A DNA stretch of 57,918 nt from an uncultured Mycoplasmatota bacterium (lineage in GTDB: Bacteria; Bacillota_I; Bacilli_A; RF39; UBA660). Of this stretch, positions 3,622 through 39,063 are shown piece after piece. Location: assembly GCA_948434005.1 (NCBI GenBank), contig CAOJEH010000009.1, positions 1-57,918 of the forward strand, read 5' to 3'. Numbering within the stretch: the first letter of the stretch is position 1; each line of letters starts with the position of its first letter. The notes below the pieces were generated by a model, which had not been told where the DNA came from, ran no database searches, and saw only the letters and a program-made list of their open reading frames with translations. The translations under genes were made by a program, and so were the position numbers.

Positions 3622-3870
3622 TATGATTAATTTGATAGCTGTTCTTTCTTCTCCATCTATGGCAATATCTGAAAAAGCTGGTATACAAACTAAATTTTTA
3701 CCACTAGGTGCGACAAATCCCCTTGCAATTGCAACTGCTTTTATTGCTTGATTTAGTGCTCCTGCTCCTACAGCTTGTATTTCAACGCTACCTTTTTCTC
3801 TAAAGACATTGGCTAAGGCTCCAGCAACACTATTTGGATTAGATTTACTACTTACTTTGAGTATTTCCAT
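3610..3870 (-). CDS. spoVS: stage V sporulation protein S
   Basis: A small Alba-like sporulation regulator; in Bacillus its loss blocks a late stage of spore formation. The 86-aa length and the whole sequence match the family, including MEILKVSSKSNPNSVAGAL at the N-terminus and the Gly/Ala-rich QAVGAGALNQAIKA helix. SD GAAAGGA precedes the ATG. It is monocistronic, with its own terminator, between the T-box operon and ldh. One of several sporulation genes in the window, it supports a spore-forming lineage. Confidence 0.97.
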   Translation of the reverse strand: MEILKVSSKSNPNSVAGALANVFREKGSVEIQAVGAGALNQAIKAVAIARGFVAPSGKNLVCIPAFSDIAIDGEERTAIKLIIEAK

Positions 3871-3942
3871 ATATATTATTCATTCCTTTCTATGATTAAT
3901 ATATATGTTTTTAAATTATATAAAATACTAAATTATTTATAA

Positions 3943-4854
3943 TTAATCTTCTATCTTTTCAATAGCTTCTTTTATTATATCAACACAGTTTTGCATTTTT
4001 TTAGTTTCTTCTTCTGTTAATTTTATATATATTCTTTGTTTTACACCATTTCTATTTATTATTGCTGGTGTTCCCATAAAAATATTATTATCTTTATCAT
4101 AGCTTGATACAGTTAAAACAGTATTTTCATCACTTAATATTGCATTAGTTATTCTAACCAAACTCATACCTATACCATAATAAGTAGCACCCTTTCTATT
4201 GATTATATCATAAGCGGCATTTTTTACTTTCTCATGAATTTTATTTAACTCATCCTCTTCTAGAAAAGTAGATATATTTTGAAGTCCGATATTAGCATTA
4301 CTCCAAGGAACAAATTCAGAATCCCCATGTTCTCCTACTACATATGCATGAATGTTTTTAGGATTAATACCTAATCTATTACCTACTAAAAATCTAAGTC
4401 TTGCAGTATCAAGGCAAGTACCCGAACCAATTATTTTATTAGGACTAAATCCTGAATATTTCCAAGTTAGATATGTCATTACATCTAATGGGTTAGTTGC
4501 TACTAAAAAAATTCCATCGAAACCATTATCTATAACTGATTTTACTATTGTTTTAAATATTTTACTATTTTTATTTATTAAGTCCATTCTAGTCTCTCCA
4601 GGTGCTTGATTAGCTCCTGCAGCAATAACTACCAAAGTGGCATCACTACAATCACTATAGTCTCCTACTTTAATATCTATTTTACTAGGTGCAAAGGCTA
4701 AACAATGATTTAAATCCATCGCTTCTCCTTCAATTCTTTTTTCATCTAAATCAATTAATACTAATTCTCCTACATTTGTTCTTTGGTTTAATAAGGCATA
4801 AGCATAACTCATACCTACATTTCCACAACCAATTATAACAACTTTATTTTTCAT
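3943..4854 (-). CDS. ldh: L-lactate dehydrogenase
   Basis: Reduces pyruvate to L-lactate with NADH, regenerating NAD in fermentation. The N-terminal Rossmann motif is VVIIGCGNVGMSYA; the substrate loop reads GANQAPGETRMDL, where Gln at the specificity position marks lactate rather than malate dehydrogenase; the catalytic His is in GEHGDSE and the substrate-binding Arg in DTARLR. 303 aa from the ATG at 4854, chosen because AGGAGGATAGTT is ideally placed before it. The frame stays open further upstream to 4950 but that part has no family similarity and runs into the next gene's terminator. Confidence 0.96.
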   Translation of the reverse strand: MKNKVVIIGCGNVGMSYAYALLNQRTNVGELVLIDLDEKRIEGEAMDLNHCLAFAPSKIDIKVGDYSDCSDATLVVIAAGANQAPGETRMDLINKNSKIFKTIVKSVIDNGFDGIFLVATNPLDVMTYLTWKYSGFSPNKIIGSGTCLDTARLRFLVGNRLGINPKNIHAYVVGEHGDSEFVPWSNANIGLQNISTFLEEDELNKIHEKVKNAAYDIINRKGATYYGIGMSLVRITNAILSDENTVLTVSSYDKDNNIFMGTPAIINRNGVKQRIYIKLTEEETKKMQNCVDIIKEAIEKIED

Positions 4855-4900
4855 AACTATCCTCCTATCTTTATTATAGACGGTTTTAATTTTTTTAACA

Positions 4901-4926
4901 AGAAAAAAAGAAAGTAAAACTTTCTT
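4901..4926 (-). terminator. terminator of the repeat-rich membrane protein
   Basis: Stem AGAAAGT/ACTTTCT (4909-4915 with 4919-4925) touching the stop codon, followed on the minus strand by a T7 run. Confidence 0.8.
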
Positions 4927-6031
4927 ATTGGTTATTTGGTGTAATATCAACTACTGGAGCAACTGGATCTGTAATATTAGTTGAGGTCTCTACGACCGGT
5001 GCTACCTCAGTTGATGATTCTGATATAGGTCCTGCATCTACTACAGGCGCAACTTCTATTGGGGTTTCATTAGCAGTAGCATCTACAATTGGTGTTACTT
5101 CTGCTGATGCTATATTTTCAGCAGCAGGTACTACCGGAGTACTTGCCTCTGGAATTACTTCTGCACTTACCGGCGGTGTCATATTAATCTGTGTATTTTC
5201 TAAAGGATTTGCTCCTCCATATATTTCATGTGGTTCATTATTTGTTGAGTTTATATCAATATTTGAAATAGGACTTGCGCCTCCATATATTTGACTACTA
5301 TCTATAGAATTTGCTACCGGTATTTCAGGTGTTGCTTCAACTACTGGTTCACTTACTTCTGGCATTGGACTTACCGCATCCATTACTGGAGCATTTGTCT
5401 CTGGCATTGGACTTACCGCATCCATTGCTGGAGTGCTTGCCTCTGGCATTGGGCTTATTGTATCCATTACTGGAGTATTTACTTCTGGCATTGGACTTAC
5501 CGTATCCATTACTGGAGTGTTTGTCTCTGGCATTGGATTTACTGCATCCATTACTGGAGTGCTTGCCTCTGGCATTGGACTTACCGCATCCATTACTGGA
5601 GCGTTTGTCTCTGGCATTGGATTTACTGCATCCATTACTGGAGTGCTTGCCTCTGGCATTGGATTTACCGTATCCATTACTGGAGTGCTTGCCTCTGGCA
5701 TTGGACTTACCGCATCCATTACTGGAGCGTTTGTCTCTGGCATTGGATTTACTGCATCCATAGCTGGCATTCCTATATTATTAGGATTTTCAACATTTTG
5801 AGATTGAGCCATATCTATTCCTGGAGTTCCAATAGCATCATTTGTAGGTGATATTGTCATTCCACTATCTACCATTTCTTTTGCACCTTGTGCTGATTCT
5901 GCGCTTACTTTGTCAACTTTATTTCCTTTTTTGTTAGAGGTACTAATAAATATTATTAGAGCAACTATTAATAGTATTACACCACCACTTATTAAAAGGC
6001 CTGGTATTGTTAAAAACCATTGAAAATCCAT
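4925..6031 (-). CDS. membrane-anchored protein with 14-residue tandem repeats
   Basis: Function unknown. Residues 7-31 form one hydrophobic N-terminal membrane segment followed by basic residues (NKKGNK), so the rest is probably outside if the segment is a signal anchor, though orientation is not certain. Residues 90-229 are ten tandem copies of a 14-residue unit of type MDAVSPMPETNAPV. The C-terminal 140 residues are Pro/Val/Ala/Thr-rich, with two IYGGA(S/N)P motifs near 246 and 268. Such low-complexity Pro-rich stalks occur in wall-spanning proteins. No LPxTG motif is present. SD GGGAG lies before the ATG at 6031. A monocistronic unit with its own terminator. Confidence 0.85.
   Translation of the reverse strand: MDFQWFLTIPGLLISGGVILLIVALIIFISTSNKKGNKVDKVSAESAQGAKEMVDSGMTISPTNDAIGTPGIDMAQSQNVENPNNIGMPAMDAVNPMPETNAPVMDAVSPMPEASTPVMDTVNPMPEASTPVMDAVNPMPETNAPVMDAVSPMPEASTPVMDAVNPMPETNTPVMDTVSPMPEVNTPVMDTISPMPEASTPAMDAVSPMPETNAPVMDAVSPMPEVSEPVVEATPEIPVANSIDSSQIYGGASPISNIDINSTNNEPHEIYGGANPLENTQINMTPPVSAEVIPEASTPVVPAAENIASAEVTPIVDATANETPIEVAPVVDAGPISESSTEVAPVVETSTNITDPVAPVVDITPNNQ
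5345..5764. repeat. 42-bp tandem repeat array, 10 units
   Basis: Ten in-frame 42-bp units encode the 14-residue repeats of the surrounding gene. Neighbouring units share blocks of identical DNA, with recurring pairs of unit types (ETNAP and EASTP endings) arranged in alternating order, which suggests expansion by unequal recombination of two-unit blocks. Long open frames on the plus strand here are only by-products of the repeat. Confidence 0.95.
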
Positions 6032-6127
6032 ATTATCTACTCCCTTATTTTATTCTATTCTTATTCTATATATAATAATATCAAAAAAAAGAATCAATTG
6101 CAAATAATTCTTTATTTTGACATTTTT

Positions 6128-19816: not shown

Positions 19817-20748
19817 CTATTTAAATACAACATTTTGTAATTTGCCAGTAGATAAAGCCACAACGTTATCACACCAAATTGTAACTAATCTATCAATTGC
19901 TTCTTTTGTATAAAATGCATAAGGAGCTGTAGCCATAATATTTCCCTTGTAGTCATACATCTTTTTCTCATTATCATATAATTCAAAAGCATAACTAATT
20001 TCTTCTTTTTCAGCCCTATTAAGAAGTAAATCATGATTATATAATTCCCTAGGGTTATTGACTACATTAATAAAACTATTACCATTCATTTTATTTATTA
20101 ACTCATCTGTAATTAATTTGCTTGTTTCCTCATTTGTAGCAAATGCCGGAAAAATAAAATCTGCTTCTTTGAATATAGTTTCTAAATCAACTTTTTTATA
20201 ATTATTTTGTTTTTCACTTCTATTCCAATAAATAACATTCATACCTAAAGCCTTACACATATCTGCTATTTTAGAACCTATTGTTCCAAGTCCAATAATA
20301 CCTACCGTTTTATTTCTTATTTCAGTTGTTAACATATATTGTGAATAATCCATTTTATAATCTGTCTTTGCTTGGATTGGAAATTTCTTTGCTAAACACA
20401 TCATAAGAAATATGCCATATTCGGCTACTGAATCAGTTGAATATTTTGGTATATTGCATACAACAATATTATTGTCTTTACAATAATCTAAATCTATCCA
20501 ATCAAATGCTGTTGTAGATAAACAAACTCCTTTTAAGTTTTTTATCTTACTTAAATGGTTCGCATTAATATCCCAATTATACCAATCTGGATCTACTACT
20601 AATATTTTTTCTTCTTCATCTATTAAATATGGTGCTTTATCTAAATCAAAAGTATCTTCCAAAAAGATTAGTTCCCCCCCCCTTGATTTAATTCTTGAAT
20701 TTGTTGTTCAGTAAAACTTTTTTTGTGATATGTTATATATAATTTCAT
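19817..20748 (-). CDS. D-2-hydroxyacid dehydrogenase, out of frame at a G9 tract (phase-variable candidate)
   Basis: NAD-dependent D-isomer 2-hydroxyacid dehydrogenase: dinucleotide motif GIIGLGTIGSKIA, AEYGIFLMM, and VNNPRE where the catalytic Arg region lies. A good start (AGGAGG then ATG at 20748) begins MKLYITYHKKSF, but nine Gs at codons 23-25 lead into AAC TAA, stopping after 26 codons. With ten (or seven) Gs the frame joins GELIFLEDTFDL and the complete dehydrogenase of about 310 residues. A TTG at 20662 could give a shorter product. It is either an OFF phase variant or an assembly length error in the homopolymer. Confidence 0.85.
20674..20682. repeat. C9/G9 homopolymer inside a coding region
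   Basis: Nine Cs on the plus strand (nine Gs in the mRNA) between codon 22 and the frame break of the dehydrogenase gene. One of only two such tracts in the window, striking in DNA this AT-rich. Confidence 0.95.
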
Positions 20749-36901: not shown

Positions 36902-37022
36902 GATTACCACCTCTACCTTTTACTTTTTATCATATCATATTTAGCTCTATATCATATTCTTCTATATTTTATTCATCATTTTCACTTTTATCATCTTTTT
37001 AATCACTAATTTTATTATAAAT

Positions 37023-37053
37023 TAAAAAAAATAGAATTGCAATCATTCTATTT
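37023..37053 (-). terminator. terminator of the phase-variable surface gene
   Basis: Stem AATAGAAT/ATTCTATT (37030-37037 with 37045-37052), 7-nt loop, T8 on the minus strand. Confidence 0.85.
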
Positions 37054-37059
37054 TCTTAT

Positions 37060-38007
37060 TTATTTAGAAACCTCTACTACTGCTCTAGCACCAATACCGG
37101 GATATGTAGGAGAAATTGTATACCAAAGACGCCCTTGCCGACCAATATGCCAAACAAAATCAGAACTACCAGTATAAGCATTCATTGTCCAATAACCATA
37201 TCTTCCGTCTCCTCCATCTGTGGTAGTATCAGAAACTGAACCTCCAAAATCGGTAGAGCTATATAAATAATTGTAAACCCATTTAGGACAAGAACCAGTA
37301 GCCCTAGTACACCCCACGTTAGCTAATTCTTGCACTGTAGCCAGTCTAGCCTTTGCTGTTCTTTGGGCTAATGTATATTTATTAGTAGTACATGAATTAT
37401 ATTCACTACATCCTGACAAAAAACTATTTCCTATAGTATAGGTTTGAGTATTTACATTACTCCAACTTGATGTTGCATTTTCTAACATTGGTAGTACCTT
37501 GGTAGGGCCATAACTATTAATATCTCCCGCATACCAAGCTATATTATTGATTATATTTTTTTGTGTCTGCATTGTAATAGTCTTTCCCTTATCCTGTATA
37601 ACATGAAATCTTACTCTAGTATTTGTTCCACTTACAATATAATCAATAATAGTTCCTGGAGGACAAGTTTTTGCTGATGAAGTATAACAGTCTGTTCTAG
37701 TACAAGTTGCTTCATCTCCGGTTACACAATAGTTACTTGCCCCACTTGTTTGATTATATGTATATTCTACATAAAAGTTTGACTGTGTTAGCGAACAAGA
37801 TCCTGTTGTACAATTACTTGACTTTTTATATAATTCTTCTATTGAACCTTGAACATTATTAGATAACGAATTTGATTTACTGTTATCATAGGATACTTCA
37901 CTACTAGAAAGATTAGTTGATGCATATACTCCTATACCTCCAAATACTATTCCTCCTAATATAAATGCTATTACTATTTTGTAGTTTTTCTTTATAAATT
38001 TCTTCAT
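37060..38007 (-). CDS. exported lectin-like surface protein B (phase-variable promoter)
   Basis: 315 aa from the ATG at 38007 (GGAGTGG before it). N-terminal membrane anchor or signal segment (IVIAFILGGIVFGGIGVYAS) with YA before the cut, then a SEVSYDNSKSNSL...VQGSIEELYKK motif, six or more cysteines in pairs (CTTGSC, CVTG, CTRTDC, CPPG), and a C-terminal C-type-lectin/DUF1566-like block with GYWTMNAYTGSSDFVWHI and GARAVVEVSK. Its middle 316 bp of DNA is identical to that of the neighbour at 38107-39063. The promoter contains a G9 spacer tract. Likely displayed outside the cell; ligand unknown. Confidence 0.82.
   Translation of the reverse strand: MKKFIKKNYKIVIAFILGGIVFGGIGVYASTNLSSSEVSYDNSKSNSLSNNVQGSIEELYKKSSNCTTGSCSLTQSNFYVEYTYNQTSGASNYCVTGDEATCTRTDCYTSSAKTCPPGTIIDYIVSGTNTRVRFHVIQDKGKTITMQTQKNIINNIAWYAGDINSYGPTKVLPMLENATSSWSNVNTQTYTIGNSFLSGCSEYNSCTTNKYTLAQRTAKARLATVQELANVGCTRATGSCPKWVYNYLYSSTDFGGSVSDTTTDGGDGRYGYWTMNAYTGSSDFVWHIGRQGRLWYTISPTYPGIGARAVVEVSK
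37597..37912. repeat. 316-bp direct repeat, copy in gene B
   Basis: Identical to 38662-38977 (offset 1065 bp) with no difference seen; sequence on either side diverges sharply. Confidence 0.93.
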
Positions 38008-38039
38008 TATACCACTCCGCACTTTTATTTTATACTTTT

Positions 38040-38069
38040 ATCATACCCCCCCCCAGAGGCTTTTGTCAA
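38040..38069 (-). promoter_or_regulatory. promoter with G9 spacer tract
   Basis: On the minus strand: consensus TTGACA (38064-38069), then AAAGCCTCT plus nine Gs, then TATGAT (38040-38045). The spacer is 18 bp with nine Gs and becomes the optimal 17 bp with eight. It starts directly after the T run ending the preceding gene. Slippage of the tract should switch promoter strength, as known for poly-G spacers of Neisseria porin promoters. Confidence 0.8.
38046..38054. repeat. C9/G9 homopolymer in promoter spacer
   Basis: Nine Cs on the plus strand, exactly between the -35 and -10 of the minus-strand promoter for the gene starting at 38007. Confidence 0.95.
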
Positions 38070-38106: not shown

Positions 38107-39063
38107 TTATTTAGACACCTCTATTACTGCTCTTGCACCATATAAAAGAAGATTGGTTCCTGTACTATAATTAGCATATATATGTCCATTTTTGGCAATA
38201 TACCATGCATGTATAGTATCTAATTGATATGAGGACATTGTCCAATAACCATAATTATGCATAGTTCTTTCTATATTATCATCTACTGTCCCACCATAGC
38301 TCATAGCACCATATGTATAATTATACATCCATATAGGGCAAGAGCTATTAGAAGTGGTACACCCAAAAGTGTTTGCTTCTTGCACTGTTATCATTCTTGC
38401 TTTTACTGTTTTACTACCTAATGTATATTTATTTTCTGTACATGAATTATAACTACTACATCCCGTAAAAGCATTATCTTTAAATACTGTTTCCCCCATT
38501 GTATAAGTTTGGTCTTCTACATTAGTCCAACTACTAGTTGCTTTTTCTAATTGTGGTAATATTGTTGTTGGTCCTTTTGTATTGACGCCTGATGAATCCC
38601 ATGCCAAATTATAAATTGTATTTTTTTGTGATTGCATTGTCATAGTTTTTCCTTTATCTTTTATAACATGAAATCTTACTCTAGTATTTGTTCCACTTAC
38701 AATATAATCAATAATAGTTCCTGGAGGACAAGTTTTTGCTGATGAAGTATAACAGTCTGTTCTAGTACAAGTTGCTTCATCTCCGGTTACACAATAGTTA
38801 CTTGCCCCACTTGTTTGATTATATGTATATTCTACATAAAAGTTTGACTGTGTTAGCGAACAAGATCCTGTTGTACAATTACTTGACTTTTTATATAATT
38901 CTTCTATTGAACCTTGAACATTATTAGATAACGAATTTGATTTACTGTTATCATAGGATACTTCACTACTAGAAAGAATAGTTGTTGCATATACTCCTAT
39001 ACCTGATATTAACATTCCTATTGTCAATCCTATAATTAAAAAGGAAAAATTTTTTCTATGCAT
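38107..39063 (-). CDS. exported lectin-like surface protein A
   Basis: 318 aa from the ATG at 39063 (GAGTGAT before it). Same layout as the neighbour at 37060-38007: N-terminal hydrophobic segment ending GVYAT, SEVSYDNSK...VQGSIEELYKK motif, paired cysteines, and a C-terminal domain with NYGYWTMSSYQLDTIHAWYI and GARAVIEVSK. Residues about 35-140 are identical to the neighbour; the rest only about 40% similar. Last gene of the SipW operon, 6 bp after the 197-aa exported protein gene. A variable adhesin or fibre-tip protein is plausible; ligand unknown. Confidence 0.82.
   Translation of the reverse strand: MHRKNFSFLIIGLTIGMLISGIGVYATTILSSSEVSYDNSKSNSLSNNVQGSIEELYKKSSNCTTGSCSLTQSNFYVEYTYNQTSGASNYCVTGDEATCTRTDCYTSSAKTCPPGTIIDYIVSGTNTRVRFHVIKDKGKTMTMQSQKNTIYNLAWDSSGVNTKGPTTILPQLEKATSSWTNVEDQTYTMGETVFKDNAFTGCSSYNSCTENKYTLGSKTVKARMITVQEANTFGCTTSNSSCPIWMYNYTYGAMSYGGTVDDNIERTMHNYGYWTMSSYQLDTIHAWYIAKNGHIYANYSTGTNLLLYGARAVIEVSK
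38662..38977. repeat. 316-bp direct repeat, copy in gene A
   Basis: Partner of 37597-37912; identical along its length as far as I can read. Confidence 0.93.

Follow-up and report, generated by a model that had tools for sequence, protein, structure and literature searches.

A poly-G tract between the -35 and -10 elements suggests probable phase-variable expression of a gene for a surface-type protein in an uncultured gut bacterium and its relatives

We report a promoter with a tract of nine consecutive guanines between its -35 and -10 elements on the minus strand of a 57,918-nt stretch of DNA (hereafter: the window) from an uncultured Mycoplasmatota bacterium. Phase variation by slippage in this poly-G tract is very probably the right reading of the locus, and is the best that we can offer, with the mechanism itself inferred. 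Slipped-strand mispairing within the G run at 38046-38054 would shift the distance between the two hexamers in steps of 1 bp, and the changed spacing would raise or lower transcription of the downstream gene (37060-38007), predicted to encode a membrane-anchored surface protein. Such switching would affect a small fraction of the cells per generation. Nine Gs correspond to a spacer of 18 bp, which would be the weaker or off setting, and the loss of one G would lead to 17 bp, the spacing of ordinary promoters in these genomes. The window tract appears to be one of several such switches in its genome, and the arrangement is spread through the order, a group of uncultured gut Bacilli, and into other gut Bacillota.

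The -35 hexamer TTGACA (38064..38069, minus strand) and the -10 hexamer TATGAT (38040..38045, minus strand) are separated by the 18-bp spacer AAAGCCTCTGGGGGGGGG (38046..38063, minus strand). Read on the minus strand from 38063 to 38046, this spacer consists of AAAGCCTCT followed by GGGGGGGGG and ends in the G9 homopolymer (38046..38054), the proposed slippage switch. The first-pass annotation had described these two hexamers, 18 bp apart with nine Gs between them, and they can be read directly in the sequence. When a stretch of 8 kb was scanned, the locus promoter was one of the two top sigma-70-type matches (both 11/12), and of these two only the locus promoter contains a perfect TTGACA. The homopolymer is placed between -35 and -10, as in porA-type switches. 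The ATG at 38007 is located 33 bases 3' of the -10 hexamer and is preceded by the probable ribosome binding site CGGAGTGG, which includes GGAG (38012..38019, minus strand). On the 3' side of the gene, an A/T-rich hairpin with a T run behind it (37015..37055, minus strand) constitutes a possible terminator; this hairpin was missed by the G+C-based terminator scan.

Upstream of the promoter lies a tandem paralogue with 67% identity that lacks a poly-G promoter (38107..39063, minus strand). It is the last gene of a cluster of co-directional genes reaching from 40855 to 38107, which stops 37 bp short of the -35 hexamer. In the scan for G+C-rich terminators and stable hairpins, no terminator was found between the paralogue and the window gene, so that read-through from the cluster could bypass the switch. 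The tract could then be real but idle, with the gene expressed by read-through and the promoter being a relic. We regard this explanation as improbable, because the perfect -35 element, the near-perfect -10 element and the ribosome binding site have all been retained, an identical promoter precedes an unrelated gene elsewhere in the same genome (G000:C4), poly-G promoters also precede genes of this protein family in five other species, and terminator-like hairpins set the individual family units apart in a sister species (G006).

Long G tracts are enriched throughout the genome to which the window belongs (G000; 1.45 Mb, 26% GC, 96% complete). The chance expectation for tracts of at least eight Gs is 0.09 in the window, and that for G/C runs of 8 or longer is ~0.8 in the genome, as calculated from the G-G and C-C step frequencies over 1.45 Mb. 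There are 16 such runs in this genome, which were counted as 14 distinct tracts because contig C9, which is the window, duplicates part of contig C1. The earlier judgement that a G9 run at this very place is unlikely by chance is borne out by these numbers, and by a reversed control pattern without any match (see below). In a 373-kb sample, 32 runs of length 5 were counted, followed by 1, 2 and 0 runs at lengths 6, 7 and 8, and by 3 runs at length 9. This gap at lengths 6-8 with a return at 9 is the signature of maintained simple repeats.

The locus itself is present on both C9 and C1, with 99.992% identity over 52.3 kb, and no difference in tract length was found between the two copies, which both have G9. 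The duplication spans positions 5609-57918 of the window and the end of G000:C1, with 4 mismatches in 52.3 kb, and represents either two strains or a binning duplicate. The contig ends lie in tandem repeats, located at ~5.4-5.8 kb and 57.7-57.9 kb of the window.

Four of the distinct tracts in the genome lie precisely in the interval from a TTGACA to a TATGAT hexamer, and the context of a fifth is promoter-like but weaker; hence promoter-type tracts account for 5/14, while most of the remaining tracts are intragenic. A spacer identical to that of the window precedes a gene for a prepilin-type protein (G000:C4:127278), where the complete arrangement TTGACAAAAGCCTCT-G9-TATGAT recurs at G000:C4:127272-127301. 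Further promoter tracts are found before an ABC ATPase gene (G000:C2:236126) and, with a spacer of 23 bp, before the gene for a membrane-anchored serpin (G000:C11:3808). The fifth tract, in a degenerate context, precedes the gene of a 386-aa protein that begins with a hydrophobic segment (G000:C4:48019).

Coding-frame tracts that are opened or closed by a one-unit change are the usual second form of phase switches, and known sets of contingency genes likewise mix promoter and coding tracts. The second G9 tract of the window (20674-20682, minus strand) is located close to the 5' end of a D-2-hydroxyacid dehydrogenase gene, the frame of which is closed at nine Gs and open at seven or ten (~310 aa). 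Three intragenic tracts leave the frame closed as assembled and open at +/-1 G: one in a metallo-beta-lactamase-like gene (C6:23827), one in an inositol monophosphatase gene (C7:6179) and one at C7:49896. The frames are open as assembled in a DUF6020 gene (C2:128450) and in a DegT-PglD sugar aminotransferase gene (C11:35907). In addition, a G10 tract at G000:C11:9606 (L050) is positioned three bases 5' of a start codon, where it could affect the ribosome binding site.

The promoter layout recurs far beyond this genome. Of the 385 genomes in the order sample, 70, belonging to 29/117 genera, contain the strict pattern TTGACA-N6-12-G7-N0-10-TATNAT, with at most 21 sites per genome. The same pattern reversed, which served as the control, matched 0 times across the 385 genomes. 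The layout was also found in other families of the class, and GTDB species contigs yielded at least 119 stretches containing it, mainly from gut Clostridia and Bacilli but, among the matches listed, also from Saccharibacteria, Streptobacillus and Helicobacter. The same poly-G promoter pattern was seen on four viral contigs (L282-L285) from IMG/VR. The offset of the G tract from the -10 hexamer ranged from 0 to 9 bp among the sites. When copies with the same flanks within one genome were compared, the number of Gs was the sole difference in 11/16 sets, for instance 8/9/10, 9/10/11 or 14/15/16. G runs are a weak point of short-read assembly, and in two related species (G003 and G008) contigs break off within such tracts or beside them, as would fit an artefact of homopolymer assembly or sequencing. 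We consider such an origin hardly credible, given the non-random placement of the tracts between the hexamers, the zero matches of the control and the occurrence of the tracts in many independent assemblies, isolates among them.

The length of the spacers is informative about the possible setting of the switch. Ordinary TTGACA/TATAAT promoters without a G run in the genomes of the order have a spacer of 17 bp at 52/81 sites (lengths of 15-21 bp were counted), and the same peak at 17 bp was obtained for G000 alone (10/25 sites). Hence the statement in the first-pass annotation that the loss of one G gives the optimal 17-bp spacing agrees with the peak of the ordinary promoters of these genomes, from which the locus spacer of 18 bp is one unit off. 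Among 306 poly-G promoters, spacers of 15, 16, 17, 18, 19, 20 and 21 bp were found 16, 31, 25, 69, 117, 34 and 14 times, respectively; the main peak is at 18-19 bp, a lesser peak is at 16 bp, and only 25/306 (8%) are at 17 bp. For the share of 17-bp spacers in ordinary versus poly-G promoters, the nominal Fisher P is 8e-25, with the reservation that sites within one genome are non-independent. The genus-weighted distribution of poly-G promoters in the order agrees, with 0.65/22 genera at 17 bp and 10.1/22 at 19 bp. Likewise, the GTDB set is bimodal among the matches listed, with 22 at 16 bp, 7 at 17 bp, 26 at 18 bp and 40 at 19 bp. The assembled poly-G promoters flank the 17-bp optimum on both sides and are mostly one or two Gs off. 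On the simplest reading, the majority allele would be the off or low state, one or two slips away from on. We also considered selection on the total spacer length through compensation between flank and G count. This signal was strong over all sites and gone with one site per genome, and the idea was therefore dropped.

The same distribution permits another explanation, in which promoters with such a tract form a class of their own and the tract serves them as a constant structural element. Its premise is that the A-like geometry of poly-G DNA shifts the optimal spacer, so that 18-19 bp with G9-G10 would be the true optimum and the length would be selected to stay constant. The peak of 117/306 poly-G promoters at 19 bp is in line with this explanation, as are the G9 tract in both copies of the window locus and the near-uniform G9 tracts with 19-bp spacers across the ~76 promoters of the sister species G006, described below. 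It is unlikely nonetheless, because the number of Gs differs between same-flank copies and the position of the tract within the spacer is variable, with distances of 0-9 bp to the -10 element. Moreover, one shifted optimum does not predict the two peaks of the GTDB set (16 and 18-19 bp, among the matches listed), poly-G tracts occur in coding frames of G000 as well, and the poly-G promoter of tp0126 has its optimum at 17 bp (PMC7864442). We therefore favor slippage as the reading of the locus. Two points weigh most against it: the G9 tracts of the G006 promoters are uniform, and transcription from the upstream paralogue may read through into the gene.

The gene controlled by the window promoter (37060..38007, minus strand) encodes a protein of 315 aa with an N-terminal membrane segment, and its family is conserved in the genus. 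Behind its hydrophobic N-terminal segment the sequence continues as a long soluble part, and the C-terminal stretch preceding GARAVVE is hypervariable among relatives. The membrane segment is in line with a surface-type product, as had been proposed. Such segments are common behind these promoters: an N-terminal hydrophobic segment was present in 71/99 genes behind poly-G promoters compared to 203/806 background ORFs (GTDB loci, among the matches listed). There are 4 distinct copies of the family in G000; matches elsewhere numbered 32 in G003, 14 in G007, 10 in G008 and 8 in G002, and G006 gave 98 match rows including fragments. Family genes with poly-G promoters of 8 to 12 Gs were found in G000, G002, G003, G006, G007 and G008. 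Five contigs from G003 and G008 (L244, L255, L261, L262 and L268) terminate in or beside a G tract, and these breaks look like mixed lengths, repeats or sequencing failure.

Profile searches of the window protein and its family against Pfam, NCBIfam, PHROGs and PDB gave no meaningful match, and no viral relatives of the protein were found. An AlphaFold2 prediction from two sequences only had a pLDDT of 32 and did not provide a usable fold. The designation "lectin-like" in the first-pass annotation is therefore unproven, lacking a known domain, a solved relative or a usable model. Annotated variable regions of diversity-generating retroelements (DGRs) have been described as C-type lectin folds (PMC8144416). 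The sole hint of a lectin would be an indirect one, namely that relatives of the window protein appear to be targets of DGRs.

These relatives are best represented in the sister species G006, in which ~76 distinct promoters following the pattern TTGCAA-N9/10-G-TATAAT precede genes of the window protein's family; the reversed control of this pattern yielded 0 matches. Most of these genes stand in tandem at intervals of ~1 kb. The units are separated by TTACACTTCGGTGTAATTTTTT hairpins that resemble terminators, and the C-termini of the proteins are hypervariable between YWTMS and GARAVVEI. Nearly all promoters have G9 with a 19-bp spacer, a few have 18 bp and one tract is interrupted. This is more uniform than free slippage would lead one to expect and counts against a switch.

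Inside this array of homologues lies a DGR (L099, G006:C3:13000-22000, positions 3750-6055), with genes for RVT_1, bAvd/DivGenRetAVD and a MutS_I-like protein. The RVT_1 match is the only one in the G006 genome and falls within one cluster of family genes. Compared with the template repeat (L099 3750-3855), the adjacent target has 17 differences, 17/17 of them at adenine, and two further close copies have 16/18 and 16/19 of their differences at adenine; in older copies other changes are present too. A second DGR with the same layout was found in G003 (L291, G003:C41, 100-2652, minus strand), comprising genes for the RT, Avd and a MutS_I-like protein, with 7/7 differences between template (TR) and variable repeat (VR) at adenine. 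Judged by gene content and repeats, both cassettes are DGRs that act on the family of the window protein.

In the 96%-complete G000 assembly, no template repeat for the window gene was found, since the VR query returned itself plus short chance matches. On a contig of 3 kb (G000:C16, L237), a DGR-like RT is present as a fusion with a MutS domain I, and the Avd-like frame beside it is broken by a stop; no template repeat was seen on this contig. Our model for the genus, which we hold with about even confidence, is that the DGR writes C-terminal variants and that individually insulated poly-G promoters (~76 in G006) slip to select the expressed ones, with the window locus as a small member in which the switch was kept and the template repeat was lost or left unassembled. 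The joint working of DGR and poly-G promoters in the sister species is likewise put forward as a hypothesis whose chances we judge to be balanced.

Among known systems, the closest is porA of Neisseria meningitidis, for which 11G gives high, 10G intermediate and 9G low expression (PMC3639595). In both cases a poly-G tract separates the -35 and -10 elements of a gene for a surface-type protein, and its length is, or would be, altered in one-G steps. The window locus differs by its phylum and protein, by hexamers that are both near consensus and by the many loci per genome; moreover, the switch at the window locus is a prediction from sequence. The original comparison had named porA and opc together. 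The porA-type poly-G spacer holds, whereas opc is the weaker match because its poly-C tract overlaps the -35 region (PMC7864442). Poly-G promoters as at the window locus also exist in Treponema pallidum: tp0126 has its tract between -35 and -10 with an optimum of 17 bp, tprE/G/J are on at 8 Gs or fewer, and tprL has a modal tract of 9 Gs (PMC7864442). These differ in that the tprL tract overlaps the -10 region instead of the spacer and that the products are spirochaete outer-membrane proteins. The vlhA genes of Mycoplasma gallisepticum form a large paralogous surface-protein family with a variable repeat at each promoter (PMC6258824); the repeats described there are GAA repeats upstream of the promoter, whereas here the G run lies within the spacer.

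The TvpA-type DGR of Treponema denticola resembles those of the G006 and G003 relatives in its RT, Avd and MutS_I-like genes and its adenine-specific TR/VR pairs, but has 2 to 7 targets (PMC4891356), compared to ~76 family genes with poly-G promoters in G006. T. denticola genomes without a DGR retain leftover targets (PMC4891356), to which G000, without a matching template repeat, may be likened.

Among the matches in the openly accessible literature that was searched, we recognised no paper that links poly-G switching to this group or to DGRs. New here are the wide occurrence of the arrangement among gut Bacillota, the rarity of the optimal spacing in assemblies and the union with a DGR in a sister species. 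The findings would carry porA-type promoter switching beyond the well-studied pathogens and into a large group of gut commensals, most of them uncultured, in whose order the layout is common (70/385 genomes under the strict pattern). They offer a comparative sign, namely that assemblies avoid the 17-bp optimum, and counting tract lengths in reads is a test open to anyone with metagenomes. By joining a hypermutating retroelement to a putatively switchable gene array, the sister species may provide a setting for asking what purpose the targets of bacterial DGRs serve.
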